This document shows positions 35,401 through 54,976 of a stretch of DNA of 64,000 nucleotides, one piece after another; within the stretch, counting starts at the first letter, position 1; the number at the start of each line of letters is the position of its first letter. The translations under genes were made by a program, and so were the position numbers. This DNA is from Gemmatimonas phototrophica (GTDB lineage Bacteria > Gemmatimonadota > Gemmatimonadetes > Gemmatimonadales > Gemmatimonadaceae): assembly GCF_000695095.2 (NCBI RefSeq), contig NZ_CP011454.1, positions 4,030,001 to 4,094,000 on the forward strand, read 5' to 3'. The notes below the pieces were generated by a model. It was not told the origin of the DNA. It was given only the letters and a program-made list of their open reading frames with translations, and did not search any database.

Positions 35401-36581
35401 GGCAACAGCAGGGCACGCAATTCCTGCCGCCGCACACTTCGGCGGCGGCGCCGTCCACTGACATCGGTGTCGGTGAGGCGCTTGAACAGCCGCGACACCA
35501 ACTCGCGATCGTAGCCGGTGAGGAGCTGCTCCACGTGCGCCGGTAACGCCAGCGCCAGCCCACCCACGCCATCCAGGTGCGCGGATTCAAGCACGGTGGC
35601 GGACGGATCGGCGGCGCGTAGGGCGTCCCAGCTGCGATACAACGCGTGTTGCACCGCCGGCAGCAGATCGGGATACCCTCCACCATGCGCGAGCAAGTGC
35701 TGCGTCAGCTCCGGCGCCACCTGCCCACCCGCCAGGAGCGCAGGCTGCTCAATAGCCGCCGTGAGCTGCGCGTCGCTGAGTGGGGGGACCAGATATCCGT
35801 CCCGATTGATGCGATCAGGCAGCCCCTCGAACTGGTCACAGGCACCAATCACGTCGGAGCGGATGGCGCACAGCACATACACCGGCACGTCAGACGCACT
35901 GGTGAGGGCCAGCAGAAGCGCCACAAACCGCTGCGCATCGGCAAGACGCTGCGCCCGGTCGGTGGCCCGTTGCTGCTGGACGGCCAGGTCGATGGCGCTG
36001 CCGTCGCCCGTTCGCCCCAGCGGCGGCGTGGCGGTCAGCAGCTCCTCGAACTGATCGACGATCAACAGCAGCGGTCCGTGCCCCTCGCGGCTGTCGTTGC
36101 CGTTGGCAGACGCCCGGAGCAGGGGCCAGAGGGCGTCCACCCCGTCGGTACGCAGGCGCTGGGCCAACGCCTCCGCCGCCTCGTCTGTCGAGGCGCCGGG
36201 TGGCTCCCCGCCGACGGTGAGAAGGGCGCGAGCCAGCTGGAACAGCGGCGCGGCGCCAGGGCGGCACAGCGCGGTGATCCATCGATCGCGCGCGGCGGTA
36301 GCGGGGGTGGTTGGCAGCGCGGGGACCACACCGGCCAGCATCAACGATGTCTTGCCGCACCCCGGGGCTCCCAACAGGGGAACAAAGCGTGCGCGCGGCA
36401 GTCGCTCCATCAGCTCGGTGATCTGCGGGCGTCGTCCAAAAAAATACGGCGCATCGTCCGTGCGGAACGGACGGAGACCAACGTATGGATTGGCGCGCGG
36501 AAGTTTCACAAACTGGGGACGCGTGACCTGGGATCGCTCTGACGCCGGAGCGTGGCCATCTGCCAATGGCCGCGGCCTCAT
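32460..36581 (-). CDS. Membrane-anchored nSTAND1 NTPase with WD40-like propeller
   Basis: 1373 residues. Residues ~30-330 match the novel STAND NTPase 1 type: NPYVGLRPFRTDDAPYFFGR, Walker A GAPGCGKT (71-78), Walker B LLLIVDQFEELL (~173-184), then IRSDVIGACDQFEGLPDRI and GGGYPDLLPAVQHALYRSW. A helical region follows to residue ~545, then one transmembrane segment (~547-566, GGVAALLIAVVALVQFQ) and a short charged helix (QAHIKKEQLKTSLYTSLQ). From ~620 onward about 700 residues are beta-repeats of WD40/YVTN type (VTAVAFAAVDG, GRLRLWSSEA, GRLRSWRPADWY, GGVYVWELWW). This is a sensor-plus-ATPase layout with the propeller probably outside the cytoplasm. Output unknown. No toxin-like effector domain is visible. 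Confidence 0.83.
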   Translation of the reverse strand: MRPRPLADGHAPASERSQVTRPQFVKLPRANPYVGLRPFRTDDAPYFFGRRPQITELMERLPRARFVPLLGAPGCGKTSLMLAGVVPALPTTPATAARDRWITALCRPGAAPLFQLARALLTVGGEPPGASTDEAAEALAQRLRTDGVDALWPLLRASANGNDSREGHGPLLLIVDQFEELLTATPPLGRTGDGSAIDLAVQQQRATDRAQRLADAQRFVALLLALTSASDVPVYVLCAIRSDVIGACDQFEGLPDRINRDGYLVPPLSDAQLTAAIEQPALLAGGQVAPELTQHLLAHGGGYPDLLPAVQHALYRSWDALRAADPSATVLESAHLDGVGGLALALPAHVEQLLTGYDRELVSRLFKRLTDTDVSGRRRRRSVRRQELRALLLPPDDTGTSPAGLPDVTGRRGAASARLDELLAALTQDGSNILTCVPDQTASNPRYELTSDCLLRQWLTLQTWMDEERALAEWFYAIADRAARYARGAEVELLPRPSWQLARQRLHSVISEAWIAGRYDDADAPLRLIQSFVEVSRGARLRRTVTRGGVAALLIAVVALVQFQITQAQAHIKKEQLKTSLYTSLQRFADTDPTYGAVLAGFVGVELSEDSLRESVSRLQDHPRALLELPRVTAAAILDSTHLITALTNGDVAIVTTTVPQQRIGALPRRSTAMPVTWLALRPNRTVVTVDAAGVVESFRLDNLRAPTALARRDSLGAAVVELRVSADSSAMAMRTADGRLRLWSSEANARPVLVADSQRVTAVAFAAVDGDRLVYASLRTDSAARRSGRLVAVSGLREVPVFTPIATDLPDSVRAVALPADGRVLAIVNTDVLEVRANGERSTLANYHPTGLAVSPDSLAQVLVGSVEGRVDVLFPGRLTTPVPFTQHADASSAVYLEGGRYVLSAAADNTLWWTSRDEPSRRYALLGHRAPVQAARAQSSHGLLITLDDDGRLRSWRPADWYQRYLLNGARSSVAPLLLSRFGERVLTTLAGSLVVEDSQRVRTAATLPASSVQLLAASPGGTSAVLGDSSAQRWSWSDRADVAAKPLVPLRAGFGANGMRYSTNGAVLFAVHADSSVSVLNAATMIERPLAAWGAVPVWSAPSLDSTGALVAYTDARGVQVRAVNSAQLVRQFSRSGAAPMVSQLLFPSGKRLLWMQADGRLQLRELARAADSVPRAPFTGAPGTRIETLAARADEYVFAYVTDKGGLYLLEVLPTSLRQVPLTMRLSNNDAVRHVAFDSTGLRLVATTAFGGVYVWELWWDAAASRMEARPLLQRTHTPRVPRTAPVQMAATVFSRDGKRLHSVMHLPGQPSRRMSWDLDANLVRQQADQWQSRCVDFASLFNEASREFTRDASTCRFDVSTAGPARQR

Positions 36582-40415: not shown

Positions 40416-40505
40416 GGCCGGAGTGATATAGATCATGAAGGTGAGACAAGAAAAGCCGTTATCAACGCTTAGCTTTCCCGAATGTGGCCAATAGATTCCC
40501 CAAAT

Positions 40506-42002
40506 ATGTCGAACGCTCAGGTCATGGTCTGGCTCAACGGGGAATCACGGGTGGTCGAGGGGCCGGAGGCCCTGCTTCCCGTGTCGTCATGGCTCCGCAC
40601 CGTCCTTCACCTGAATGGGACCAAGGTAGCGTGCGGCACCGGCGATTGCGGCGCCTGCACGGTGCTCGTAGCCACACCGGCCAGTGAGGTTGACGCCACC
40701 GTTCGGTGGCATCCGCTCAACAGCTGCGTGCGATTTGTGTTCCAGTTGCATGGGTGCCACGTGGTCACCATTGAAGGCATGTCCTCCGCCGAGGCACTGG
40801 CCCCCGCGCAGCGCTGCCTCATGGCGTGTCATGCGTCGCAGTGTGGGTTCTGCACGCCGGGGTTCGCGCTGACCATGACCGCCGCACTCGAACACAGTGG
40901 GAAACCGGTGGACTGGCGAGCGGCGCTCGCGGGGAACGTGTGTCGGTGTACCGGCTACAGCGCCATTCTTGAGGCGGCCGAACAGGCCGAATCCCTGGTC
41001 CAGTCGGAAGGCAGTGACCACTGGCTCAACACACGCTTCCCGCCGGAACGCTGGCAGTCGAAAGCCCGGGAGTTGTACCACCAGACGCTCAGCGTTCCCG
41101 GCCACGACGGAGGCAGTGCACGCACACCAGCGCTCTATCGCCCGTCGTCGGTTGACGAGGCGCTGGCCTGGCTGGCGCACGAACCGCACGCGCAAATTGT
41201 GGCTGGCGCCACGGACCTTGGCGTCGAGGGGCTTGATGCCACTCGGCCAGTGTTGTGCATTGAGCACCTCACCGGGCTGGCCGAATGGTCGGTGACGTCG
41301 CACCCCGACGTGTCCAATCACGAGACGGTGCGGCAGACGCTGATGCTGGGCGCACTCGTCCGGTGGCAGGAGTTGCCAGCAATTTTTTCGCGGACCGCGG
41401 GCGTTCACGCCGCGTCGCTGTCGGCACTGGTCGCGCGCGTTGGCGGACCACAGATACGGGCTGCCGGAACCGTGGGAGGGAACATCATGACCGCCTCCCC
41501 CATTGGCGACCTCTTGCCGTTGCTCCTGGTGCTGGAGGCACGCGTGGAGCTGCGCAGCGCACGCGAAACGCGAGTCGTGCCGTTGCGTGAGTTTGGCCGT
41601 GGCTACCGCGCCACCATGCGCCGGTCGGATGAGTTGCTTACGCGGGTGTTCGTGACGCTCCCGCAAGCCGACGAGCAGGTGCGTCTCGAAAAGGTCTCGC
41701 GGCGCTACGAGGTGGATATCGCCACGGTCTCTCTCGCCGCGCGGTGGCGCGACGATCACGGCATCCTGCGCGATGTGCAGCTTGCGGCAGGTGGTATGGG
41801 ACCAGCCGCCGGGCGACTGGTTCACACGGAAGCGGTCCTGAACGGGGCCACCAACGTGGCCGACAGCTGGGCCACCGCAGCCGCCACCTGTGCGCAGGAT
41901 GTCACGCCGCGCAACGACGTGCGAGGCTCTGCGTCGTATCGCTCGCTGGTGCTGCAAACGCTCATCGCCCACCTGTCGCGTTCACCAGGGGGCGCCGCAT
42001 GA
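40506..42002 (+). CDS. xdhA: Xanthine dehydrogenase small subunit (2Fe-2S and FAD domains)
   Basis: 498 residues. N-terminal ferredoxin-like 2Fe-2S domain with C-G-T-G-D-C-G-A-C and a later Cys, then the helical 2Fe-2S domain with CGFCTPG and CRCTGY. The FAD domain spans about residues 220-395 (QIVAGATDLGVE, RAAGTVGGNIMTASPIGDLL) followed by the CO-dehydrogenase flavoprotein C-terminal domain. It passes electrons from the molybdenum site via iron-sulfur clusters to FAD and NAD. Its stop overlaps the xdhB start (ATGA at 41999). First gene of a six-gene overlapping operon reaching 48501. Confidence 0.95.
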   Translation: MSNAQVMVWLNGESRVVEGPEALLPVSSWLRTVLHLNGTKVACGTGDCGACTVLVATPASEVDATVRWHPLNSCVRFVFQLHGCHVVTIEGMSSAEALAPAQRCLMACHASQCGFCTPGFALTMTAALEHSGKPVDWRAALAGNVCRCTGYSAILEAAEQAESLVQSEGSDHWLNTRFPPERWQSKARELYHQTLSVPGHDGGSARTPALYRPSSVDEALAWLAHEPHAQIVAGATDLGVEGLDATRPVLCIEHLTGLAEWSVTSHPDVSNHETVRQTLMLGALVRWQELPAIFSRTAGVHAASLSALVARVGGPQIRAAGTVGGNIMTASPIGDLLPLLLVLEARVELRSARETRVVPLREFGRGYRATMRRSDELLTRVFVTLPQADEQVRLEKVSRRYEVDIATVSLAARWRDDHGILRDVQLAAGGMGPAAGRLVHTEAVLNGATNVADSWATAAATCAQDVTPRNDVRGSASYRSLVLQTLIAHLSRSPGGAA

Positions 42003-44386
42003 GTGGCGTTGGGCAGTCGCTCCCCCACGAATCGGCGGAAGGGCACGCCACCGGACGCGCGTCGTTCATTGATGACATTCCGCGTCGCCAGGACGAGCTC
42101 CTGGTGGGGCTGGTGACGAGTCCCGTGGCCTGTGCGCGGCTGGTGCGCGTTGAGAGCACCGCAGCGCGTGCCATTCCTGGGGTGATCGCCATTCTCACCG
42201 CACAGGATATTCCCGGGGCCACGCATTTTGGTCCGCTCGTGCAGGATGAGCCGATTCTGGCGTTGGACACCGTACGCTACATCGGGCAGCCCGTCGCCAT
42301 CATTGCGGCCGAATCGGCAACGGCACTCCAGGCGGCCCGCGCCATGGTGCAGTTGGAGTTCGACACCATCGCCCCACCGGTCCTCAGCATCGAGGAGGCC
42401 ATTGCGGCCAACCGGTTTCTCACCGAACCGCACGTCATTGCCCGCGGCAATGTCGAAGCGGCGCTGGCGAAGGCCCCCATCGTACGTCGCGGGGTGTTTC
42501 AGTGTCTGGGGCAGGAACACCTGTATTTTGAAACACAGGCGGCGGTGGCGATGCCCGGTGATGACGGCCAGATCCAGCTGCACGTCTCCACGCAGGGCCC
42601 CTCGGAAACACAGCACGTGGTGGCCGAGACGCTGGGCAAGCCGCTCAATCACGTCATTTGTACCACGCGCCGACTGGGTGGTGGATTTGGCGGCAAGGAG
42701 ACACAGGCCAATCTCACCGCCGCCTGCGCGGCGCTGGTCACGCAGCATACCGGCCGGGCGGCACGGTTGGTGTACGAGCGCGGCGAAGACATGCGGAATA
42801 CCGGGAAGCGGCATCCGTTCCGGGTGGAGTGGGAAGCCGGTGTGGACGCGTCGGGACGCATTCAGGGGTTGCGCGTGTTGCTGTTCTCCGACGGCGGGGC
42901 CTACACCGATCTCTCACCTTCGGTGATGGACCGGGCCATGCTGCACATCGACAATGCATACTTCCTCGAGCACGTGTATATCGAGGGACGCGTGTGCGAA
43001 ACGCACCACGCGCCGGCGACCGCGTTCCGTGGCTTTGGTGGTCCCCAGGGCATCGCCACCATGGAAACCATTGTGCAGGAACTGACGCTGGCCTTGCGTG
43101 AGATTCCCAATGCGCCGCGTCATGCGCTGGCCCTGCAGCAACAGAACCTGTACGGCCGCGGAGAGCGCAACAGCACCCCTTACGGACAGATCGTGGCGGA
43201 GAATCATCTGCCGGAGATCATGTCCATGCTGGTGCAGGAGAGCGACTTCGACACCCGGTTCGACGCCATTGAGGCGCACAATCGTACGGACTCCCGGTGG
43301 CTGCGGGGAATGGCCGTCTCTCCGGTGAAGTTCGGGATTTCGTTTGTGGCCACGTTCATGAATCAGGCCAATGCGCAGGTCCTGGTGTATCCCGATGGTT
43401 CCGTGCAGGTGTCTACCGGCGGCACCGAAATGGGACAGGGGCTCAACACCAAGATCCGCCAACTCGTGTCGGGAGTGTTTGGTATTGATCCGGCGGCGAT
43501 TGCCATGATGGCGACCTCTACCGACAAGAACCACAACACGTCCCCCACTGCCGCATCGGCCAGTACCGACTTGAACGGCGCGGCGGCAGTGCAGGCGGCA
43601 ACGACCGTGCGCGACCGGCTGGCCCGCTGGGCGCTGCAGCAGTGGGCACCCGGCACTGACGCGCCAACCTCGCGCGTGAGCTTTGCCCACGGCTTGCTCT
43701 TTGATCACGAGTATCCTGAGCGCCGGATCCCGTTTGCCGACGCGTGTGCAGCCGCGCGCTTTGCCCGGGTGGATCTTGGCGCCCGTGGCTTCTACGCCAC
43801 GCCGGGCTTGCACTTTGACCGCAGCACCGGGCGTGGCGCGCCCTTCCTGTACTACACGCAGGGGGCGGCCGTCGCCGAAGTATGCATTGATCGTTTCACC
43901 GGTATGGTGCGCGTGCCGCGCGTGGATCTGCGCATCGACATTGGGCAATCCATCAATCCCGGCATTGACCGTGGCCAGATCATTGGTGGCTTCGTGCAAG
44001 GACTGGGTTGGGTGACCACAGAGTGCCTGATGTACGACCCGAACGGCGCGGTGCTCACCGATTCCTTCTGCACGTACAAGGTGCCCCTGGCGAGTGATGT
44101 GCCGCCCCATTTTTCCTGCCACTTCCACGAGACGGACGGTCCCGCCCACACCGTGGCGCGCAGCAAGGCCGTTGGCGAACCACCGCTCATGCTGGCCGTG
44201 AGTGTCTTCAGTGCGGTACGCCATGCGCTCGGCTGCGTCTCGCCGGCGGCGGCCCAGCGCCTCTGTTTGCCGGCGACTCCGGAAGAAGTGCTCCGGGCGC
44301 TATCGCTCGCTCACGTGCCCTTCTCGCACGATGATGCCATGCGGTGGCAGCACAGCGCCAGCATATGGCAGGGCACATCGGCGTGA
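41999..44386 (+). CDS. xdhB: Xanthine dehydrogenase molybdopterin-binding large subunit
   Basis: 795 residues, full length. Contains the molybdenum-cofactor and purine-site residues known from xanthine oxidase: Glu234 in RLGGGFGGKETQ (the substrate Glu of the bovine enzyme), Arg344 in ATAFRGFGGPQG (the substrate Arg), Q-G loop STGGTEMGQGLNTK, and catalytic base Glu727 in SKAVGEPPLML. The two purine-specific residues support xanthine/hypoxanthine oxidation rather than aldehyde or nicotinate. Coupled to xdhA by ATGA; xdhC starts 22 bases before its end. Confidence 0.94.
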   Translation: MSGVGQSLPHESAEGHATGRASFIDDIPRRQDELLVGLVTSPVACARLVRVESTAARAIPGVIAILTAQDIPGATHFGPLVQDEPILALDTVRYIGQPVAIIAAESATALQAARAMVQLEFDTIAPPVLSIEEAIAANRFLTEPHVIARGNVEAALAKAPIVRRGVFQCLGQEHLYFETQAAVAMPGDDGQIQLHVSTQGPSETQHVVAETLGKPLNHVICTTRRLGGGFGGKETQANLTAACAALVTQHTGRAARLVYERGEDMRNTGKRHPFRVEWEAGVDASGRIQGLRVLLFSDGGAYTDLSPSVMDRAMLHIDNAYFLEHVYIEGRVCETHHAPATAFRGFGGPQGIATMETIVQELTLALREIPNAPRHALALQQQNLYGRGERNSTPYGQIVAENHLPEIMSMLVQESDFDTRFDAIEAHNRTDSRWLRGMAVSPVKFGISFVATFMNQANAQVLVYPDGSVQVSTGGTEMGQGLNTKIRQLVSGVFGIDPAAIAMMATSTDKNHNTSPTAASASTDLNGAAAVQAATTVRDRLARWALQQWAPGTDAPTSRVSFAHGLLFDHEYPERRIPFADACAAARFARVDLGARGFYATPGLHFDRSTGRGAPFLYYTQGAAVAEVCIDRFTGMVRVPRVDLRIDIGQSINPGIDRGQIIGGFVQGLGWVTTECLMYDPNGAVLTDSFCTYKVPLASDVPPHFSCHFHETDGPAHTVARSKAVGEPPLMLAVSVFSAVRHALGCVSPAAAQRLCLPATPEEVLRALSLAHVPFSHDDAMRWQHSASIWQGTSA

Positions 44387-45192
44387 CCGCCATCCCGGCG
44401 CACGCCCGCGCGTGTCTGACCACGCTGGCCACGCTACAACAGCCGGTGGTGCTCGTGACGCTGGTCTCGCGCGTGGGCAGCACTCCACAGGACGTTGGCG
44501 CCAAGATGCTGGTAGATGCCAGCGGTCGCCTTGAGGGCACGGTTGGTGGTGGGCGCATTGAAGAGCGCGCGATTGCCGAGGCGAAAACGTGGCTGGCCAC
44601 TGCGCAGGGCGACGCGACCACCCCGCCCTGCCTGCTGCGGGAGTGGAATCTGCAGCGGGACATCGGCATGACCTGCGGGGGCGTGGTGACGCTGCTCTTT
44701 GAAGCGTTCAACGTGGCCCCGTGGCGTGTGGTGCTCTTCGGAGCCGGCCATGTGGCGCAATCGCTGGTGCGCAGCCTGCTGCTACTCGACTGTCACGTGG
44801 TGTGTGTCGACAGTCGCGCCGAATGGCTGCAAAAGCTCCCCGCCACACCACAGCTCTCCACCGTGCAGTTGGACGATCTGCGCCTATATGTGCCCCACGT
44901 ACGAGCGCAGGATGCCGTCATCTGCATGACCATGGGACACGCCACCGATCAACCGATTCTGCAGGCGTTGTACGCGCAGGATCTGACCCCGGCCTACCTC
45001 GGCGTGATTGGCAGTGATGCCAAACGAAAGGCGCTGGAGAAAGGGTTGCGGGCACTGGGGGTGAGTGAGCCCTGGTTGGCCCAGTTGCGCTGTCCCGTGG
45101 GATTGCCTATTGGAGGGAATCAGCCGGGAGAAATTGCCATCAGCGTGGCGGCGGAGTTGGTTGCCCTGCGTCATGCGGTGGCGGCCGAGTGA
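44365..45192 (+). CDS. xdhC: XdhC, molybdenum cofactor sulfuration/insertion factor
   Basis: 275 residues with both XdhC/CoxI halves: LVTLVSRVGSTPQDVGAKML, EGTVGGGRIEERAIAEA, then a Rossmann domain VVLFGAGHVAQSLVRSLLLL, CVDSRAEWLQKLP and AYLGVIGSDAKRKALEKGLR. XdhC binds Moco, helps its sulfuration and inserts it into XdhB. ATG 44365 lies within the end of xdhB. Its stop overlaps the GTG of a sulfotransferase gene (45189), so a sulfotransferase is wired into the same transcript, which is not usual for xdh operons. Confidence 0.93.
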   Translation: MAGHIGVTAIPAHARACLTTLATLQQPVVLVTLVSRVGSTPQDVGAKMLVDASGRLEGTVGGGRIEERAIAEAKTWLATAQGDATTPPCLLREWNLQRDIGMTCGGVVTLLFEAFNVAPWRVVLFGAGHVAQSLVRSLLLLDCHVVCVDSRAEWLQKLPATPQLSTVQLDDLRLYVPHVRAQDAVICMTMGHATDQPILQALYAQDLTPAYLGVIGSDAKRKALEKGLRALGVSEPWLAQLRCPVGLPIGGNQPGEIAISVAAELVALRHAVAAE

Positions 45193-46109
45193 CCATGACG
45201 TGGCAGCATCCCCCACACTTTCTCGTGATTGGGGCAGGTCGCGCCGGCACAACGTCGCTGCACCACTATCTGTCGCAACATCCGCAGATCTTCCTGCCAC
45301 GCGTGAAGGCGCCCAGCTATTGGTACGCTGTCGGCGTCCCGGACGCGATGGCCTCTACTCTGCCGGCGTCCTTTGTACGCGACGCCGCGGAGTATGATGC
45401 CCTCTTTGCGAACAGTTCACCGGGCCATGTGCGAGGAGAGGTGTCGCCGGTGTATCTGGCGTCCACGGCGGTCGCACAGCGCGTGGCTGCGACGCTGCCG
45501 GCCATCCGGATCGTGGTCATGCTGCGCCATCCGGTAGACCGGGTGTATGCACGTTGGGTGGCGCGTCGTCGCGATGGGCTGGAGCCGACGGCAACCTTTG
45601 AAGCGCTCATTGCCCAGGAACGCGACCAGCCCCTCATTCGCCCCGATGCACACGCCACGTATCTGGCAGGCGGCATGGTCAGCCACGTGCTTCGTAGCTG
45701 GTACGACGCCATTCCAGCGGACCAGCGTCTGGTGCTGTGGTTTGATGATTTTGCGCGTGACAGTGCCGCGAGTATGCGCACCGTGTGCCGCTTTCTCGGC
45801 GTGGACGACACGGTACCTCTGGATACGTCCCGCTCACACAACCGGAGCGGCGGGCGCATCCGGAACCCGATGGTACGCGCCGTGTGGTCGGCCAGCTATC
45901 CACTGCGCCGGAGTGTGCGCCCCCTTGTACCACAGGCACTCCGTGACCGTGTCTTTCAGTTGGCCACCAGCCAGGTGGATCGCCTGCCGTTGGCCGACGA
46001 AACCCGCGCGCAGCTCACGGATCTGTATCGCGACGAGATTCTCGCCCTGGCGAACCTCACGGGGCGAGACTTGTCCTCATGGTTGGCGCTGCCCGCCAGA
46101 GCGGTATGA
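45189..46109 (+). CDS. PAPS-dependent sulfotransferase (first of three)
   Basis: 306 residues. The 5'-phosphosulfate-binding loop is IGAGRAGTTSLHHYL (residues 14-28) and the 3'-phosphate-binding motif is MLRHPVDRVYARW. The region GHVRGEVSPVYL (about residue 80) and LWFDDFARD with CRFLGVDD are family features of bacterial heparan/carbohydrate-type sulfotransferases. It transfers sulfate from PAPS to a hydroxyl of a glycan, lipid or small molecule. GTG start overlaps the xdhC stop; an internal ATG at 45195 is possible. The P450 gene overlaps its end (ATGA). Confidence 0.9.
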   Translation: MTMTWQHPPHFLVIGAGRAGTTSLHHYLSQHPQIFLPRVKAPSYWYAVGVPDAMASTLPASFVRDAAEYDALFANSSPGHVRGEVSPVYLASTAVAQRVAATLPAIRIVVMLRHPVDRVYARWVARRRDGLEPTATFEALIAQERDQPLIRPDAHATYLAGGMVSHVLRSWYDAIPADQRLVLWFDDFARDSAASMRTVCRFLGVDDTVPLDTSRSHNRSGGRIRNPMVRAVWSASYPLRRSVRPLVPQALRDRVFQLATSQVDRLPLADETRAQLTDLYRDEILALANLTGRDLSSWLALPARAV

Positions 46110-47599
46110 GTCTCGAGCTGCGATTGCTGCTGGCGCTGATGGCCGCGGCGGCCCCCGCCACGCTGGCAGCGACCGTGCTGCGCGGCGCGTATCGCCAGGC
46201 TGTTCTGGGACCACTCGCCCGGCTCGGCCTGGCGGCTGCAGGGTGGTGCGTGGTGACCGTGCTGGTCGCGGTGTGGGCACCGACGGTGTTGATCGTAATG
46301 GCCGCGCCCGGGCTGGCGCTTGGACTCTTCATGCTGCGTGGGCGAATGGCCGGATGGCGGGTGCGTGGTCCGATGGCGCCCGGCACGTTGTCGTTCACCG
46401 CTGGCGTACGCGCCCTCGGTGACCGGCACTACTACCTGTCGCAGTTCGCGCAACATGGTCCAGTCTTTCGCATGAGCCAGTTTGGCGCGCCAACGCTGTG
46501 TGTGCTGGGGCTCGACCGGCGGCAACAGCTGATGCGTGACCATGGCAGCAAACTGGGCCCCACGCCGCTGCCGTTTGCCACCAGTGTGTTGCGCGGGTTC
46601 CTGCGGTACATGGACGAGCCGACGCACAACCGCTATGGCACGGTCATGCGCCGAGCCATGATTGGCGAATCGCCCGCGCTGCTCCAGGGCGATGTGCGCG
46701 AGCTGTTCCGGCGCATGCTGCACACGCAGGTGACCCAAGGATCGTCTGTGCCAACCGAGGCGCTCACCCGCGTCACGCGGCACGCGCTGGACGCGTTGCT
46801 TTTTGGACTGCCTACCGGGTCGCTGGCCCCCGATGCCAACACGCAGCACTACTCGAAAACGGCCACCGCGTTCTACGGCGTGGGCACCGGCAAACGCCTT
46901 GGCGCTCAGGAAGAGGCGATGTTGGACACGTTGGTGGAGCAGCTGGCCCGTCAGGAAGCGCGATTGCAAGGCACCGAATTGGCGCCGCTGGTGCCGTTGG
47001 GACGATTGCGTGCGCTCGACGCCTCGCTCCCCGACCTGACATGTCTGCAGAATTTCGTCTTCATGCACCGCATTGCCACCAACAACGTGTCGTCGTTGCT
47101 GGCGTGGTTGCTGGTATATTGGGCATCGCAACCCGGCGAGGTGCAGCGCATTCGCACCGCGCCACCGGAAGAACGCCCCCTGCTGCAGCAGCGTTTTCTG
47201 GCCGAAACGCTCCGCCTTTCGCAAAGCGAGTATACGTATCGCTCCATTCGCGAAACCTTTGAAGATCAGGGCGTCACCTACCCGGCCGGGTGGCTGGTGC
47301 GCTTCTGCGTGTGGGAAAGCCACCGCACCACGACCGCACTCGATGCGCCAACCACGTTTCTGCTGCGCACGGGAGTGACGGATTACGAGAAGGCGCATTT
47401 TGCCCCCTTTGGTACCGGCCGGCACGCCTGCACGGGCGCCGACCTCAATGAAACCATTTGCCTGGCGCTGCTGGAGCTGCTGACCACCGAATTCGAGATT
47501 GCGGTGGACAAGGTCGAGCCCGTGCAACGCGCCGGCCGACACTGGGGACATTGGCAACCCAACCGGGCCATGACGCTGACCGTCCGTGCGCGTTCATGA
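46106..47599 (+). CDS. Cytochrome P450 with hydrophobic N-terminal extension
   Basis: 497 residues. The heme-binding loop APFGTGRHACTGADL has the proximal Cys at about 442; the K-helix E-x-x-R is in FLAETLRLSQ (Glu367, Arg370). The first ~85 residues are strongly hydrophobic with two or three predicted helices (LLLALMAAAAPATLAATVLR, LARLGLAAAGWCVVTVLVAV, VLIVMAAPGLALGLFMLRG), so the enzyme is probably membrane-bound, whereas most bacterial P450s are soluble. It lies between two sulfotransferase genes, overlapping both by ATGA. Likely role: hydroxylate a lipophilic substrate, creating the group that is sulfated. Redox partner not in the operon. Confidence 0.9.
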   Translation: MSLELRLLLALMAAAAPATLAATVLRGAYRQAVLGPLARLGLAAAGWCVVTVLVAVWAPTVLIVMAAPGLALGLFMLRGRMAGWRVRGPMAPGTLSFTAGVRALGDRHYYLSQFAQHGPVFRMSQFGAPTLCVLGLDRRQQLMRDHGSKLGPTPLPFATSVLRGFLRYMDEPTHNRYGTVMRRAMIGESPALLQGDVRELFRRMLHTQVTQGSSVPTEALTRVTRHALDALLFGLPTGSLAPDANTQHYSKTATAFYGVGTGKRLGAQEEAMLDTLVEQLARQEARLQGTELAPLVPLGRLRALDASLPDLTCLQNFVFMHRIATNNVSSLLAWLLVYWASQPGEVQRIRTAPPEERPLLQQRFLAETLRLSQSEYTYRSIRETFEDQGVTYPAGWLVRFCVWESHRTTTALDAPTTFLLRTGVTDYEKAHFAPFGTGRHACTGADLNETICLALLELLTTEFEIAVDKVEPVQRAGRHWGHWQPNRAMTLTVRARS

Positions 47600-48501
47600 G
47601 CGCGAGACGTCCTGACTTCGTGGTGGTGGGTGGGAGCCGCTGTGGCACTACCAGTCTGCATGCCGCGCTCGTACGTCACCCGTCGCTCTTTGTACCGGCG
47701 GACAAGTCGCCGAATTACTTCACCGCTCCGGATGTTGCCGCGCTTCCCGACTCCACGGCGCTGCGGGCCATGAAAGGGCACAGCGTGACCACCGAGCGCG
47801 AGTACCTGCAGCTGTTTGCGCAGGCACCGGCGTCGTTGCTGGCCGGCGAAGTATCGCCTGTCTATCTGCAGAGCATCCACACCGCCGCTCGACTGGCCTC
47901 GCTCGCTCCCGAGTCTCGCATCATCGCGATGTTGCGCCATCCGGTGCACCGCGCCTATGCGCACTGGCTGGGCCGCCGTCGCGATGGGCTCGATCCGCAC
48001 GACCAGTTTGCCGCCGCCATTGCCGACGACCTCGCCAATCCGGCGCCTCGCGACGTGGCCTTCAATCACTATCTCGCCATTGGTCGTTACGCCCACTACC
48101 TCGCGCCGTTCTACGCGGCGTTTCCGCGTGAGCGGATCAAGGTGGTGTTCTTTGACGATTTCGCTTCGTCACCACGGGCGGTCATCGACGACGTGTGTCA
48201 GTTTCTGGGGGTCCCGCCCCTCGGTGAGGAGATCCCCATGGAGCAGCGCAACAAAGGCGGCATTATTCGCAATCCGCTGCTGCGCGCCATGTGGACGCGC
48301 ACCGCCCTGCAACGGGCGCGCCTGCGTGGCATTCTCCCGGCGTCCGTACGCGACGCTGTTGGACACATCGTACTGCGCGATCTGGAGCGGCCGCGGCTTG
48401 AGCCGGAGCTGGCGTCCGCGCTGGTCGCGTACTTTCTGCAGGACATCAGCGCGCTGGAGCAACTGGTCGCGCGCGAGTTGCCGGCATGGCGCCGTGCCTG
48501 A
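47596..48501 (+). CDS. PAPS-dependent sulfotransferase (second of three)
   Basis: 301 residues. 5'-PSB loop VVGGSRCGTTSLHAALVRHP at residues 10-29, 3'-PB motif MLRHPVHRAYAHWLGRRRDG, plus SPNYF and LLAGEVSPVYLQ. It is related to the first sulfotransferase: both share GEVSPVYL, the MLRHPVxRxYAxW motif, a FFDDFA/FDDFA strand and IRNPxxRAxW near the C terminus, so the pair likely arose by duplication. Its ATG overlaps the P450 stop. Last gene of the operon, convergent with cysNC 26 bases away. Acceptor unknown. Confidence 0.9.
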   Translation: MSARRPDFVVVGGSRCGTTSLHAALVRHPSLFVPADKSPNYFTAPDVAALPDSTALRAMKGHSVTTEREYLQLFAQAPASLLAGEVSPVYLQSIHTAARLASLAPESRIIAMLRHPVHRAYAHWLGRRRDGLDPHDQFAAAIADDLANPAPRDVAFNHYLAIGRYAHYLAPFYAAFPRERIKVVFFDDFASSPRAVIDDVCQFLGVPPLGEEIPMEQRNKGGIIRNPLLRAMWTRTALQRARLRGILPASVRDAVGHIVLRDLERPRLEPELASALVAYFLQDISALEQLVARELPAWRRA

Positions 48502-48527: not shown

Positions 48528-50420
48528 CTACTCCTGTTGCAGTCGGCGCCTGATCATGGCCAGCACCACATCCACTGCCGTGTCCACACTCATCGCGTCC
48601 GTGTCGATGTGCAACTCGGGAGCCACGGGGGCCTCGTAGGGCGTCGAGATGCCGGAGAGCCCAATCGTTCCGTTAGCAGCCTCGCGTGCGTAGAGTCCTT
48701 TGGGATCGCGCTGCCGCAACGTGTCTTCGCTGGCGGAGACGTGCACCTCCACAAACCGGGCGTCGGGATGCAGGGCCCGCACCGCATCGCGATCACGCGC
48801 GTACGGCGAGACAAACGCGCACAGGACGACATGCCCCGCCTCGAAAAAGAGGCGCGCCACTTCGCCGGCCCGCCGGATGTTCTCGGCGCGGTCGGCAGGA
48901 CTGAACCCCAGATGCTTGTTCAGCCCGTGTCGCAGCTGATCGCCATCCAGCAACATGGTGCGCCGTCCCTCGGTGAACAGGGCGCGCTCGACGGCCATGG
49001 CAATGGTGCTCTTCCCCGCACCGGAGAGACCGGTAAACCACACCACCAACGCGCCGTGCCCCTGCTGCGTTTCACGCTCGTGCCGTGGAATGTTCCAGTC
49101 GCTCCACGTCACATTGGGCGACGCCGACGCGCCGGCCCGTTCGGCAACGTTCACGGGCCCACGAATCATGCCCGCCCCCACGGTAGCGTTCGTGGCCGGG
49201 TCAATCAGGACGAAGCTGCCGGTGGCCCCGTTCACCCGGTAACTGTCAAAGCAGAGAGGCTTGGCCGTCACCACTTCCACACGACCGATTTCGTTGAGCC
49301 CCAACTGCGTGGTTGGCTCTCGATGCATTGAGTCCACGTCCACCCGATACTCGATGCGCTCCACAAACGCGGTCAGTTCACGCGTGGTGTGCATAAGCAC
49401 ATACGAGCGTCCAGGCTGCAGCGGCTCTTCGTGCATCCAGCAGAGATAGGCATCAAAGCGGTCGGCCACCACCGGGCGATTCCGGCGACGGACGAGCATG
49501 TCGCCGCGAGCGAGATCAATCTCCCGATCCAGTGTGACGACTACGGCATCACCAGCGATCGCTTCGTCACGGGCCCCATCAGCGGTCCCGATGGACTGCA
49601 CCACTGCTTCCGTGCCGGATGGCAGGGCCACCACTTCGTCGCCCGGGCGCATGGTGCCGGAACTCACCGTGCCGGCATAGCCGCGAAACTGCTGGTTGGG
49701 GCGGATGACATACTGCACCGGGAAACGCAGGTCGATGGTGTTGCGACGACGGCCGGCCGTGACACTCTCCAGGATATTGAGCAGCGGCCCCCCCTGATAC
49801 CACGGCATCCGTGGGGAAGCCGTGACCACGTTGTCCCCTTCCAACGCCGACATGGGCACGAAGCGAATGTCGTTGGTGGTCAGACGGGCCGCAAACTGCG
49901 TATAGTCGTCCACGATGCCGCGATAGACGTCTTCCGACCATGCCACCAGGTCCATCTTGTTGATGGCCACGAAGATGTGTGGAATCCCCAGCAGCGAGGC
50001 AATGAACGAGTGGCGCTTGCTCTGCGTGAGTACGCCGTGGCGGGCGTCAACGAGAATGATGGCCACGTCGGCGGTACTGGCGCCGGTCACCATGTTGCGG
50101 GTGTACTGCACGTGGCCGGGCGTATCGGCCAGAATGAACTTGCGGCGCGGCGTGGCAAAGTACCGATACGCCACATCGATGGTGATTTTCTGCTCGCGCT
50201 CCGCCCGTAAGCCATCGGTGAGCAGAGCGAGATTCACCCCGGACTCCCCCAGACGACGGCTCGCGCCCTCGATTTGGGCCAGCTGGTCCTCAAAGATGCT
50301 CTTGGTGTCGTAAAGCAACCGACCAATAAGGGTACTTTTGCCGTCGTCCACACTGCCGGCCGTGGCAATGCGCAACAGATCCATATCGGCGTAGTGCACC
50401 GAGGCGGAGGTGGTCGGCAT
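48528..50420 (-). CDS. cysNC: Bifunctional sulfate adenylyltransferase large subunit / APS kinase
   Basis: 630 residues. CysN part: GTPase G1 loop GSVDDGKST (22-30), G3 DTPGHVQYTRNMVTGAS, G4 NKMDL, then two beta-barrel domains. CysC part from about residue 455: Walker A FTGLSGAGKST, then LDGDQLRHGLNKHLGFSPAD and GLYAREAANG. Together with CysD it makes APS from sulfate and ATP driven by GTP hydrolysis, and the C-terminal kinase makes PAPS. The start overlaps the cysD stop by one base. This supplies PAPS for the sulfotransferases on either side. Confidence 0.96.
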   Translation of the reverse strand: MPTTSASVHYADMDLLRIATAGSVDDGKSTLIGRLLYDTKSIFEDQLAQIEGASRRLGESGVNLALLTDGLRAEREQKITIDVAYRYFATPRRKFILADTPGHVQYTRNMVTGASTADVAIILVDARHGVLTQSKRHSFIASLLGIPHIFVAINKMDLVAWSEDVYRGIVDDYTQFAARLTTNDIRFVPMSALEGDNVVTASPRMPWYQGGPLLNILESVTAGRRRNTIDLRFPVQYVIRPNQQFRGYAGTVSSGTMRPGDEVVALPSGTEAVVQSIGTADGARDEAIAGDAVVVTLDREIDLARGDMLVRRRNRPVVADRFDAYLCWMHEEPLQPGRSYVLMHTTRELTAFVERIEYRVDVDSMHREPTTQLGLNEIGRVEVVTAKPLCFDSYRVNGATGSFVLIDPATNATVGAGMIRGPVNVAERAGASASPNVTWSDWNIPRHERETQQGHGALVVWFTGLSGAGKSTIAMAVERALFTEGRRTMLLDGDQLRHGLNKHLGFSPADRAENIRRAGEVARLFFEAGHVVLCAFVSPYARDRDAVRALHPDARFVEVHVSASEDTLRQRDPKGLYAREAANGTIGLSGISTPYEAPVAPELHIDTDAMSVDTAVDVVLAMIRRRLQQE

Positions 50421-51340
50421 CAGAAGTACCCCACGCGCTTGCGGTCTTCCATCGCCGCGTCCGACCGTTTGTCATCGGCGCGCGTCCCGCGCTCCGTCAC
50501 CCGGGCCGCCGCCGTTTCCTGAATGATCTCGTCTACGCTGGCGGCCGTGGAGCGCACCGCGCCGGTGCAGGTGGCATCGCCAATCGTGCGAAAGCGCACC
50601 ACGCCGCGCTCAACGGGTTCGTGGGCCAGCGGCGGCAGAAAGTCCGTGACGGCATAGAGGACGCCATCGCGCACAAACACCTCGCGTTCATGCGAGAAGT
50701 AGAGCGACGGCATGGGAATGCGTTCGTGGGCGATGTACTGCCAGATATCCATCTCCGTCCAGTTGGAGATGGGGAATACGCGAAAGTGCTCACCGGGGAG
50801 CTTGCGCCCGTTGTAGAGCGACCAGAGCTCCGGCCGCTGGTTGCGTGGGTCCCATTGGCCAAAGCGATCACGGTGCGAGAAGAGACGTTCCTTGGCCCGC
50901 GCTTTTTCCTCGTCACGGCGCGCCCCACCCATGGCACAGTCGGCCTTGAGCGCCTGCAGGGCATCCAGCAGCGTCACGGTCTGCAGCGCATTGCGGCTCG
51001 CGCCTGGCCCCTGCTCTTCCTGCACCCGCCCGCGGTCAATGGAGTCCTGCACCTGCGCAATGTGCAACGTGTACCCCAGTTGCTGCGCGTAGGCATCACG
51101 GAAAGCGAGCGTTTCGGGGAAATTGTGCCCCGTATCGACGTGCAGCAGCGGGAACGGCGGTGGGGCCGGATGGAACGCCTTCCGGGCCAGCCACGACACG
51201 ACAATGGAGTCCTTGCCCCCTGAGAAGAGCAACACGGGGCGCTCGAACTGCGCCGCCACTTCCCGCAGCACGTGAATGGATTCGTTCTCCAGCGCCAGCA
51301 GATGACCGCGGCGAAGGGGACTGGGCGTCACGAAGGTCAT
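50420..51340 (-). CDS. cysD: Sulfate adenylyltransferase small subunit
   Basis: 306 residues, standard CysD length. PP-loop LLFSGGKDSIVVSW (SGGKDS at 40-45), LLHVDTGHNFPETLAFRD, DCAMGGARRDEEKARAKERL, FRVFPISNWTEMDIWQYIA and the C-terminal SVDEIIQETAAARVTERGTR are all typical. It forms APS and pyrophosphate in complex with CysN. It starts seven bases after the cysQ stop and touches cysNC, so cysQ-cysD-cysNC is one operon. No PAPS reductase or sulfite reductase gene is present nearby, which favours a role in sulfation over cysteine synthesis. Confidence 0.97.
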   Translation of the reverse strand: MTFVTPSPLRRGHLLALENESIHVLREVAAQFERPVLLFSGGKDSIVVSWLARKAFHPAPPPFPLLHVDTGHNFPETLAFRDAYAQQLGYTLHIAQVQDSIDRGRVQEEQGPGASRNALQTVTLLDALQALKADCAMGGARRDEEKARAKERLFSHRDRFGQWDPRNQRPELWSLYNGRKLPGEHFRVFPISNWTEMDIWQYIAHERIPMPSLYFSHEREVFVRDGVLYAVTDFLPPLAHEPVERGVVRFRTIGDATCTGAVRSTAASVDEIIQETAAARVTERGTRADDKRSDAAMEDRKRVGYF

Positions 51341-51347
51341 GGCATGC

Positions 51348-52181
51348 CTACGGAATAATGGACGAGTCGGTCACCACCGCCTGCCATGGGAAGGTCGGGT
51401 CGCCAACGGCCACGAACATGGGATTCAGCGTACGCAACGAGGGGTAGCGCAACGGCGCACCCGTCAGCGCAAACACCTCCCCACCCGCCGCGCGCAGCAC
51501 GGCGTGCGCCGCTGCCGTGTCCCACGGCATGGTTGGCCCGTCGCGGAAGTACAGGTCGGCCCGCCCCTCGGCCACCAGACAGAACTTGAGCGAACTCCCC
51601 ACCGACAGGGTCTGCGCATTGGGCAGCCGCTGCAGCATGGCCTGCACCAGTGGACCGGCATGGTCACGACTGGCCACCACACGCAGGGCGGCAGTGGGCG
51701 CCGGCGTCCGGGTCGCGAGCTTTGTGGTCCCCGTGGGCCCAATGACCCATGCGCCATTGGACGCGGTGTACCAGGTGTGCCCACTCACCGGAGCATGGAC
51801 CACGCCCAGCACCGGCTCGCCACGGTGCACCAGCGCGATGTTTACCGTGAACTCGCCGGTGCGTTTCACGAACTCCTTGGTGCCATCGAGCGGGTCTACC
51901 ACCCAGCAGACGGTCTCATCCAGTGCGGTTGCCGGGGCTCCTTCTTCAGAAACGACCGGGACCCCGGGAAACCGGTGCGCGAGCGCCGTCGCAATGACCT
52001 CGTGGCTGCGAACATCCGCCTCGGTGAGTGGCGAATAGTCCGCCTTGTACGACACACCGTTCAGGTCGTGGCGCTGGTACACCTCCAGCACGGCCGCCCC
52101 CGCGTCGTGGGCAATGGCCACGACTTCGCCTACGCGTTCTCCCAGCGCTTGGAGTATCTCGGCAGACGGCGACTGTGTCAT
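51348..52181 (-). CDS. cysQ: 3'(2'),5'-bisphosphate nucleotidase
   Basis: 277 residues, inositol-monophosphatase fold. Metal-binding motifs: VSEEG (Glu), VVDPLDGTKEFVKRTGEFTV (D-P-L-D-G-T-K-E-F of CysQ) and GPTMPWDTAAAHAVLRAAGG (W-D-x-A-A). It hydrolyses 3'-phosphoadenosine-5'-phosphate, the inhibitory by-product of sulfotransferases, to AMP. ATG 52181 was preferred over a GTG two codons earlier. First gene of the PAPS operon and divergent from the glycosyltransferase chain across about 97 bases. Its presence beside three sulfotransferases fits PAP clearance. Confidence 0.95.
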   Translation of the reverse strand: MTQSPSAEILQALGERVGEVVAIAHDAGAAVLEVYQRHDLNGVSYKADYSPLTEADVRSHEVIATALAHRFPGVPVVSEEGAPATALDETVCWVVDPLDGTKEFVKRTGEFTVNIALVHRGEPVLGVVHAPVSGHTWYTASNGAWVIGPTGTTKLATRTPAPTAALRVVASRDHAGPLVQAMLQRLPNAQTLSVGSSLKFCLVAEGRADLYFRDGPTMPWDTAAAHAVLRAAGGEVFALTGAPLRYPSLRTLNPMFVAVGDPTFPWQAVVTDSSIIP

Positions 52182-52278
52182 GTACACAAGCTAGAGAGAT
52201 TGCGAAGCCGCGGCCACGGCGAGTCACAAACGACGGTGGCCGGTGTCCACAATCGGTCTCGGTGGGCATATTCCCGCA

Positions 52279-53193
52279 GTGACCACTGCCCGGCCTCTTC
52301 CCCCTGTGCTGCTCCTGGTATTCAACCGGCCCGCCGTGGTTCGTGAGCTGGTGGCCGCACTGCGCGTGAATAAGCCTCCCGTCGTGTACGTGGCGGGCGA
52401 CGGCCCACGCACGACGCACCCTGCAGATACCGCGCGCTGCGCCGAGGTGCGCGAGGTGATCGCCCGCGATATTGACTGGCCATGCTCGGTGCGCACGTGG
52501 TTCCGGGAGACCAATGTCGGCCTGCAGCGGGCGGTGGTCTCCGGCATTGATTGGCTGTTCAGTCACGAAACCGCCGGCGTGATTCTCGAGGATGATTGTC
52601 TGCCGGCCCCCGACTTTCTGCCATTTGCCGGCGCGATGCTGGAACGCTACGCGGACACCCCCTCCGTGATGCAGATCTCGGGAGTGTCCATGCGGTCCGC
52701 CTCGACGCGCAGCCGCGAGAGTTATCACTACGCGCAGGTCGGACATATCTGGGGGTGGGCGACCTGGCGCCGCGCCTGGGCGCAGTATGACCCCACGCTG
52801 TCGACGTGGCCGGCCGTGCGCGACAGCTATCGGCGGGACCCGAGTTCTCTTCGCCGCGCCCTCGCCGCAAAGTTTGCCTCGGCCCACGCGGGACGGAAAT
52901 GGACGTGGTCACGCGCGTGGTACTGGAGCACCGTGCAGCAACGGGGATTGTCGGTCATTCCGTCGCTAAATCTCATTCACAACGTAGGCGACGGAGAGGA
53001 TGCCACCCACCAGCACGGCGCACGCCACCCGCTGCGCCGTGTGCATGAGGAAGGCTTGACGTGGCCGCTCGTGCATCCGCCGCGACTGGTCACCGACGAC
53101 GCGTACGACCAGCTCTTGACACGGTATCATCGAGGTTCGTTCAAACAGCAGCTGACGGAACGCTGGTGGGCACTGCGGGAGCAGCTGGCATGA
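52279..53193 (+). CDS. GT-A type glycosyltransferase (HlpA/GNT-I-like)
   Basis: 304 residues. VLLLVFNRPAVVRELVAALR at the N terminus, the DGPR loop, RETNVGLQRAVVSGIDWLF, the metal-binding ILEDDCLPAPDFL (E-D-D) and GWATWRRAWAQYD with a C-terminal RGLSVIPSLNLIHNVGDGED. This is the arrangement of a family of bacterial glycosyltransferases related to GlcNAc-transferase I-like enzymes. GTG start at 52279; a GTG 12 codons earlier is possible. First gene of a seven-gene overlapping chain; its stop overlaps the next start (ATGA). Confidence 0.82.
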   Translation: MTTARPLPPVLLLVFNRPAVVRELVAALRVNKPPVVYVAGDGPRTTHPADTARCAEVREVIARDIDWPCSVRTWFRETNVGLQRAVVSGIDWLFSHETAGVILEDDCLPAPDFLPFAGAMLERYADTPSVMQISGVSMRSASTRSRESYHYAQVGHIWGWATWRRAWAQYDPTLSTWPAVRDSYRRDPSSLRRALAAKFASAHAGRKWTWSRAWYWSTVQQRGLSVIPSLNLIHNVGDGEDATHQHGARHPLRRVHEEGLTWPLVHPPRLVTDDAYDQLLTRYHRGSFKQQLTERWWALREQLA

Positions 53194-54290
53194 CAGTGGT
53201 CCCGCCCGGCTCACGCATCATGCTGTTGATTCACCGCGCCGACATTGGCGGGGTGGAGCGCCGTCTCTCCATTCTGGCGGACCAGTTCGAGGCCGCGGGT
53301 ATTACGTGCACCTTCGTCGCCGTCAGTGGCGCCTCGACGGATCCTGGACCGCTCGCCCATCGGACCGTGTTGGCGCTCGATCCGACTCGATCGCGCACCC
53401 TCTGGCGCAACCTGCGCCGCTGGTGGCGGCTCCGGCGGCTGCTGGCCCAGACTCCTCACACTGCACTACTGACCTTCGGACACCACGCCAACGCACTGGG
53501 GGCACTGGCCGCCGCTGGCACCGGTATCCAGGTCATCCTCAGTGAAGTCCTGTCGCCCTTTGTCCGTCATCGCCGGTGGTGGAACCGCACCACCATGTGG
53601 AGCTACCGACTTGCCGATGTCCTCGTGGTGCAGACACAGCGACTTGCCGACGACTTCCGTCAACGGTTGCCGCAACCGAGACGGGTCGTGGTGATTCCCA
53701 ATCCGCTGCACCCTTCAACGATTGTCCCCACGGCAGATGGCGCACGGCAACCGGTCATCCTCGGCCTCGGGCGCCTCGTTCCCCAAAAACGCTATCAGGA
53801 CCTGATCACCGCGTTTGCCCGTGTGGCGCCCGATTTTCCGGACTGGCGCGTGCGGATCATCGGGAGCGGCCCGGAACTGTCCGGATTGCGCGCCCTTGCA
53901 GAACAGCTGGACGTGGCGGCGCGCGTTGAATTGCCCGGCGCTACGACCAATCCCTGGCCGGACCTTCGGAGCGCATCGGTGTTGGCGCATTGCGCCGCGT
54001 ATGAGGGGTTCTGCAACACAATCATTGAGGGACTCGCCAACGGTTGCGCGGTCGTTGCCAGTGATTGCCCGTATGGGCCCCGCGAAATCCTCGCCAATGG
54101 TGAGGGCTTGCTGTATCCCGTTGGCGATATCGACGCCCTGAGCAGTCACCTGCGGCTCTTGATGGGTAACGAACCCTCGCGCGTTGCAGTGGCGCGCGTT
54201 GGCCATGCCTCAGTTGGTCGATTCCGCCTGGACGCCAACGTGCGTATGTGGCAGGCCCTCTTCATCCCGACGCCGCCGGTCCGCTCGTGA
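53190..54290 (+). CDS. GT4-family glycosyltransferase
   Basis: 366 residues, GT-B fold. IHRADIGGVERRLSILADQF at the start (acceptor domain), HHANALGALAAAGTG, then the donor domain VILGLGRLVPQKRYQDLITA, WRVRIIGSGPELSGLRALAE, LPGATTNPWPDLRSASVLAH and the E-x7-E motif in EGFCNTIIEGLANGCAVVAS with DCPYGPREIL. Resembles GalNAc/Gal transferases using UDP-sugars. ATG overlaps the preceding stop; its own stop overlaps the GTG of the third sulfotransferase gene. Confidence 0.92.
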   Translation: MTVVPPGSRIMLLIHRADIGGVERRLSILADQFEAAGITCTFVAVSGASTDPGPLAHRTVLALDPTRSRTLWRNLRRWWRLRRLLAQTPHTALLTFGHHANALGALAAAGTGIQVILSEVLSPFVRHRRWWNRTTMWSYRLADVLVVQTQRLADDFRQRLPQPRRVVVIPNPLHPSTIVPTADGARQPVILGLGRLVPQKRYQDLITAFARVAPDFPDWRVRIIGSGPELSGLRALAEQLDVAARVELPGATTNPWPDLRSASVLAHCAAYEGFCNTIIEGLANGCAVVASDCPYGPREILANGEGLLYPVGDIDALSSHLRLLMGNEPSRVAVARVGHASVGRFRLDANVRMWQALFIPTPPVRS

Positions 54291-54976
54291 GACGCGCCTC
54301 CCCACGCTTCGTGATCTACGCGCAAGGGCGCACGGGGAGCCACCTGCTCATGAGTCTCCTCGGGTCACATTCGCAAGTGGAGTGCGCCGGTGAACTGCTC
54401 AACCGGCAGGATTGGACAGGATGGCGGCAGTATGCGCGGCGCGCAGTCTTGCGCGCACCGGATCTGTATTTGCCGCTGCGCTCTCGAGCGGCGACGCGCC
54501 TGTGCTGGGGCGGGAAGGTGCCCATTGCCACGTCCGCGCGGGGATTGGCCCGCCTGCAGGCGCAGGGCTGGTGCGTGCTCTTTCTGGAGCGCACATCGAT
54601 ATTTGACCGAGCCATCTCGTGGTGCGTAGCCACGCTGGCTGGACGCTTCCAATCCACCGGCCGGGAGCAGGCGCCGCGACTCCTCGTTCCCGAACCGCTA
54701 TTCCTTGAGCAGCTCGCATTTCGCGCCTACTGGGATCGGGAATCACAACGTGTCATGCAGGACATCCCACATCTGCGGCTGAACTACGAAGCCGATCTGG
54801 CGCAACCGGCGCTGTGGCAGCAGACCGCCAGCCGGGTCTGTGCCACGCTCGGCGTGACCAGTGAGCCACTTGCAGGCCAGACCGCACGAAGCTGGGATCG
54901 TCGCTATGACGAGATCGTCGAGAACTACGACCGGTTGCTGCGTCTCTACGAAGCCACGGTGACCACGGCGCCATGA
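54287..54976 (+). CDS. Sulfotransferase, Stf0-like (third of three)
   Basis: 229 residues. 5'-PSB loop FVIYAQGRTGSHLLMSLLGS right at the N terminus, followed by SQVECAGELLNRQ, VLFLERTSIFDRAISWCVA (the 3'-PB R-x7-S motif) and LRLNYEADL near the C terminus with a final ENYDRLLRLYE helix. This is the shape of Stf0-type carbohydrate sulfotransferases; Stf0 itself sulfates trehalose. Very different from the two other sulfotransferases. Embedded between two GT4 genes with 4-base overlaps on both sides (GTGA, ATGA), so its acceptor is probably the glycan or glycolipid they build. Confidence 0.85.
   Translation: MRRASPRFVIYAQGRTGSHLLMSLLGSHSQVECAGELLNRQDWTGWRQYARRAVLRAPDLYLPLRSRAATRLCWGGKVPIATSARGLARLQAQGWCVLFLERTSIFDRAISWCVATLAGRFQSTGREQAPRLLVPEPLFLEQLAFRAYWDRESQRVMQDIPHLRLNYEADLAQPALWQQTASRVCATLGVTSEPLAGQTARSWDRRYDEIVENYDRLLRLYEATVTTAP

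Follow-up and report, generated by a model that had tools for sequence, protein, structure and literature searches.

In this study, we analysed a 64,000-nucleotide stretch (hereafter the window) of the genome of Gemmatimonas phototrophica, a single contig of 4.717 Mb. Within it, xdhABC is followed on the same strand by a cytochrome P450 gene lying between two sulfotransferase genes (the ST1-P450-ST2 cassette), and beyond these by PAPS genes and a glycosyltransferase block, as listed below.

40482-42002, + strand, xdhA
41999-44386, + strand, xdhB
44365-45192, + strand, xdhC
45189-46109, + strand, ST1, predicted PAPS-dependent sulfotransferase of 306 aa (Sulfotransfer_3, PF13469, 2.3e-16)
46106-47599, + strand, cytochrome P450 of 497 aa (PF00067, 4.8e-9)
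47596-48501, + strand, ST2, predicted PAPS-dependent sulfotransferase of 301 aa (Sulfotransfer_3, PF13469, 8.2e-15)
48528-50420, - strand, cysNC, sulfate adenylyltransferase large subunit-APS kinase fusion (NCBIfam NF004035, 900 bits, cut-off 715)
50420-51340, - strand, cysD, sulfate adenylyltransferase small subunit (TIGR02039, 415.8 bits, cut-off 396.6)
51348-52187, - strand, cysQ, 3'(2'),5'-bisphosphate nucleotidase (TIGR01331, 260 bits, cut-off 228.8)
52243-53193, + strand, weakly glycosyltransferase-2-like protein (PF00535, E 0.083, below cut-off)
53061-54290, + strand, GT4 glycosyltransferase, true start probably further downstream (PF00534, 5.3e-29)
54248-54976, + strand, probable third sulfotransferase (PF13469, 2.5e-5, 25.1 bits, cut-off 27)
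54973-56229, + strand, GT4 glycosyltransferase (PF00534, 4.7e-29)

A first, sequence-only reading of this DNA had left out cysNC, cysD, cysQ and the glycosyltransferase/sulfotransferase block at 52243-56229 (+ strand). Its description of five successive overlaps from xdhA to ST2 was accurate, as the junctions, read directly, are ATGA, 22 bases, GTGA, ATGA and ATGA. With the alternative in-frame GTG start of xdhC at 44383, the 22-base overlap shrinks to a 4-base GTGA, and with the alternative ATG start of ST1 at 45195 a 2-base gap to xdhC appears. Further 4-base overlaps were found at other junctions of the window (e.g., 28653/28650, 54976/54973 and 57839/57836); the overlaps from xdhA to ST2 are thus normal operon packing for this genome, and the chain is an operon-like layout, not proof of a shared pathway. 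GC content was 64.8-65.5% throughout the region, giving no compositional sign of recent transfer.

Pfam models and motifs place ST1 and ST2 among the predicted PAPS-dependent sulfotransferases. Specifically, ST1 reached 61.2 and 39.4 bits and ST2 56.1 and 37.8 bits, above both Pfam cut-offs of 27 and 22 (Sulfotransfer_1/3), and both proteins carry the N-terminal PAPS-binding loop RxGTTSL and the downstream LRHPV.R, which are kept across the cassette relatives described below. The two are about 40% identical to each other. The AlphaFold model of ST1 is good (pLDDT 90), and its closest solved folds are 3rnl and then the heparan sulfate 3-O-/N-sulfotransferases (TM about 0.65 to the heparan sulfate enzymes vs about 0.4 to small-molecule SULTs), the likeness lying in the fold and the PAPS-binding P-loop region at an identity of about 16-25%. 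The ST1 proteins of cassette relatives are 47-49% identical to that of the window, and in the tree ST1 sequences form a clade apart from ST2 (support 100/99), so the two types predate the spread of the cassette. Where the window ST2 falls in the tree is uncertain; among its best matches, at 39-42%, are the second sulfotransferases from the five cassette relatives.

The P450 scored 35.9 bits against a PF00067 cut-off of 22.8, and this membership is backed by the fold match of its model. The heme loop FAPFGTGRHACTG with its cysteine and the ExxR motif, as ETLR, are present according to family alignments and a motif check. By profile and fold, the closest solved P450s are CYP120A1, the retinoic acid hydroxylase of Synechocystis (about 17% identity), followed by sterol P450s; the single sequence as query gave no match in the PDB at E <= 0.001. 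In contrast to CYP120A1, the window P450 lacks the I-helix motif threonine and has hydrophobic N-terminal helices. Hydropathy predicted two to three likely membrane helices, the model (moderate, pLDDT 76) places helices at residues 3-25, 36-57 and 59-84, and a hydrophobic N-terminus is common to the family. The I-helix acid-alcohol pair [AG]GxDT is not present, a hydrophobic residue replacing Thr in the entire P450 family; the pair reads NV or DV in cassette-type P450s and DL, DI, DV or NV in other members. Most P450 monooxygenases use this pair, though not all do, so its absence leaves P450 membership standing while the usual oxygen activation is not assured.

The cysNC, cysD and cysQ genes adjoin ST2 and are convergent with the cassette. 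Curated models assign CysNC to PAPS synthesis and CysQ to the removal of PAP, the by-product of sulfation. CysNC is the sole match to PF01583 in the genome and CysD the sole match to PF01507, a family that covers CysD and the PAPS/APS reductase CysH alike. CysH of assimilatory sulfate reduction was not detected in the genome as judged by this one Pfam family, and since no PF01507 protein besides CysD is present, PAPS made at the locus probably serves sulfation, with no detectable reductive use. Assimilatory sulfate reduction is patchy in the Gemmatimonadota, where the full pathway was reported in at most three fresh-water genomes (PMC10581226). In cassette relatives, APS kinase genes lie on contigs other than that of the cassette. 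In addition, the candidate third sulfotransferase of the window (54248-54976) sits within a GT4-ST-GT4 block and gave no PF00685 match. Neither a flippase nor an exporter gene was found in the window. Elsewhere in the window, positions 32460-36581 encode an nSTAND1 NTPase of 1373 residues that carries WD40-type repeats.

A P450 alignment profile scanned against 84,980 species genomes returned 24 P450 loci; on the same contigs, the P450 as a single-sequence query gave no match. The same sulfotransferases stand beside the P450 in five of these loci (L077 to L081). Four of them (L077-L080) hold the full ST1-P450-ST2 set with ST1 upstream of the P450, and L081 shows ST2-P450 at a contig end. Some cassette genes overlap in L077 and L081, and ST2 is convergent in L078-L080. 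The relatives come from at least three lineages beyond that of the window: L077 is labelled Actinomycetes, L081 is labelled Acidobacteriota, and L078, L079 and L080 belong to one small phylum. Several are contigs of metagenome-assembled genomes, and of these L077 (11.6 kb) and L081 (4.3 kb) are short; their labels may therefore be wrong. L078 is labelled Gemmatimonadetes, yet its genome groups in the small phylum of the Eisenbacteria-labelled L079. This recurrence, together with the sulfotransferase tree, bears out the idea that ST-P450-ST is a conserved unit and not a chance line-up. Gene content and order, conservation of ST1-P450-ST2 across phyla and the local PAPS genes are all seen in the sequence itself.

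The unit is also rare. Counting the query genome, the cassette P450 subfamily occurred in 2 of the 396 genomes sampled from the phylum of L081 and in 1 of 396 from that of L077. Among 298 genomes of the window's own phylum, P450 relatives were at most about 34% identical and the seven closest loci had no cassette. The cassette P450, ST2 and a close XdhC were absent from every other sampled genome of the genus, one member of which has a 27% identical P450 with an internal stop. Plasmid searches returned distant P450s, XDHs and sulfotransferases only. The P450 closest to that of the window (42%; L076:3922-6606) is preceded by an ABC exporter gene and followed by a Rieske oxygenase, and its contig, 7.2 kb long, carries no sulfotransferase.

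We examined 102 genes flanking the P450 family at about 25 loci. In raw counts, not set against random genes, sulfotransferases, glycosyltransferases, methyltransferases, Polysacc_synt flippases, ABC exporters and molybdenum hydroxylases were among the commonest. The L078-L080 group carries two GT-like proteins, a Wzx flippase and an ST-GT2 fusion, with an FkbM methyltransferase in L080; a Wzm/Wzt-type ABC exporter overlaps the P450 in L081, a methyltransferase lies near the cassette in L077, and in L033 the P450 overlaps a glycosyltransferase, a weak GT2 match, by 4 bases. The Sulfotransfer_3-GT2 fusion protein (L078:14956-16644 and L080:15014-16642) is downstream of cassette and flippase. 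On a Mesorhizobium plasmid (NZ_CP033508.1; L129:7911-10201), a distant family P450 overlaps a family A glycosyltransferase by 4 bases, and this P450 is present on five Mesorhizobium plasmids. These neighbours bear on a further explanation, that the genes make a sulfated secondary metabolite and the envelope genes are mere neighbours. Specialised metabolism would be expected to show the very rare, patchy distribution that the cassette has, and P450 plus sulfotransferase is known from antibiotic clusters, of which notonesomycin is a possible case (PMC7081687); against this, the annotated neighbours in the window and at the cassette loci included no identified polyketide, peptide or terpene synthase, and we regard such an origin as quite improbable.

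The xdh genes look like ordinary purine-breakdown genes in front of the cassette, judging by their sequences. XdhB (849.7 against a cut-off of 849.5, TIGR02965) and XdhC (166.4 against 161.6, TIGR02964) scored above their models, and XdhA below its own (351.6 against 467, TIGR02963). XdhB aligns over almost its full length with xanthine dehydrogenase of Rhodobacter capsulatus (1jro/2w55 chain B). By alignment and motif check, it retains E232, R310, F344, F459 and E730 in R. capsulatus numbering, E730 being catalytic, E232 and R310 purine-binding, and E232 the residue altered in 2w55. With the purine-specific E232 and R310 and with E730 retained, XdhB would be expected to act on purines. Just three other sampled Gemmatimonadota genomes have an XdhB this close, and none of the three loci has a sulfotransferase or P450.

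The sequence-only reading had placed all six genes in a single pathway: the molybdenum hydroxylase and the P450 would carry out the oxidation, and ST1 and ST2 would then sulfate the oxidised substrate. It had named the gene neighbourhood in relatives as one check. The five cassette relatives all lack xdh near the cassette, an outcome that by this check counts against the link between cassette and xdh; together with the purine residues kept in XdhB, it leaves a part for the molybdenum hydroxylase in the proposed chemistry unsupported. The remainder stood: with a P450, PAPS enzymes and a local source of PAPS, oxidation and sulfation can reasonably be expected. Apart from the continuous overlaps, a single pathway finds partial backing in two Nitrospirota loci with the operon-like order xdhA-xdhB-xdhC-GT4-P450 (L125, and L097, where the gaps are 6 and 3 bases), whose P450s are 65% identical mutually and about 25% identical to that of the window. 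An adenosine deaminase gene near one of these operons (L097:2295-10171 and L125:9212-18869; the gene is in L125) represents a purine context and speaks against it. At a measured density of 0.84 molybdenum hydroxylases per Mb, chance would place such an enzyme near the P450 in two lineages other than that of the window with P of about 0.005-0.06, according to how much distance is allowed; as a post hoc figure this is suggestive of proximity somewhat beyond chance. The close XdhB loci that lack sulfotransferase and P450 also speak against a joint pathway, which all told we consider improbable. A CO-dehydrogenase-like molybdenum hydroxylase is convergent with a P450 of the same family at L086:5257-12006 and L032:728-4038; the two were dropped as independent cases because their same convergent arrangement suggests one lineage.

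We propose, with a probability of roughly 0.55, that the locus is devoted to sulfating an exported glycan or glycolipid of the cell envelope, and that a purine xdh operon is joined to it. CysDNC would make PAPS. ST1 and ST2, as old paralogues probably directed at different acceptor positions, would sulfate the exported molecule, whose backbone the neighbouring glycosyltransferases would assemble. The predicted membrane-anchored P450, encoded between them, would oxidise that same molecule in its lipid-linked or hydrophobic portion, and thereby create or shape an acceptor site. CysQ would clear PAP, an inhibitory product, and xdhABC would be an ordinary purine xanthine dehydrogenase that shares the transcript by happenstance. 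The glycosyltransferase, flippase and exporter neighbours of the relatives point to an exported glycan or glycolipid as the target of sulfation; this substrate class, the order of the reactions and the membrane topology of the P450 are what we infer. The recurrence of the cassette in other lineages without xdh, the ST1 model, nearer to heparan sulfate sulfotransferases, the cysNC, cysD and cysQ genes beside ST2 and the glycan-gene neighbours count for the proposal. Counted against it are the closest P450 folds, which act on retinoids and sterols and would also fit a free lipid or isoprenoid, the window without an identified flippase or exporter, and the APS kinases of the relatives off the cassette contig.

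A sulfomenaquinone-like sulfation of lipids would account for part of the same evidence: the P450 would hydroxylate a menaquinone, carotenoid, hopanoid or polyprenol, the sulfotransferases would sulfate it, and no glycan would be involved. The closest described chemistry, set beside the cassette by description, is that of CYP128A1-Stf3 in Mycobacterium tuberculosis, where a P450 gene adjoins a PAPS sulfotransferase gene in sulfomenaquinone biosynthesis with the same hydroxylate-then-sulfate logic (PMC7404182). Both this enzyme pair and the cassette P450, with its hydrophobic N-terminal helices and with CYP120A1 and sterol P450s as nearest solved relatives, are in keeping with a lipid substrate. 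However, the mycobacterial system has one sulfotransferase where the cassette has two, kept as a distinct pair, and glycan genes are unreported there. In addition, ST1 resembles carbohydrate sulfotransferases, and the relatives are set among glycosyltransferases and polysaccharide exporters; we therefore consider a purely lipid product rather unlikely.

Other known systems resemble the proposed sulfation of an envelope glycan in part. In Sinorhizobium, the sulfotransferase NodH works with a dedicated CysD/CysNC-type PAPS supply, NodPQ, and acts on an exported lipo-oligosaccharide, the Nod factor. The dedicated PAPS supply is alike when functional logic alone is compared, whereas the Nod unit has no P450 and differs in gene order and acceptor. 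The sulfated capsule clusters of Vibrio sp. KMM 8419 and Cobetia marina KMM 1449 hold sulfotransferases among glycosyltransferases and a flippase, and neither paper contains the term P450 (PMC11641403, PMC11766843). In openly licensed papers on P450s with sulfotransferase and polysaccharide genes, no such ST-P450-ST cassette was described. The main text of the calcium-response transcriptome paper on G. phototrophica does not mention the genes of the locus.

To our knowledge, P450s have seldom been tied to bacterial surface polysaccharides, and we know of few bacterial sulfated glycans beyond marine, rhizobial and mycobacterial examples. More tentatively, these genes may represent an undescribed family of membrane-anchored P450s that help to assemble envelope glycans across several phyla, where they would oxidise lipid-linked or glycosylated intermediates; with the fixed sulfotransferase pair, they might define a new class of oxidised, doubly sulfated surface glycoconjugates, tied in some lineages to an xdh operon. 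The three-gene cassette, conserved across phyla, is a compact unit open to testing, and G. phototrophica, with no detectable PAPS reductase, offers a clean genetic background in which PAPS should go to sulfation alone.
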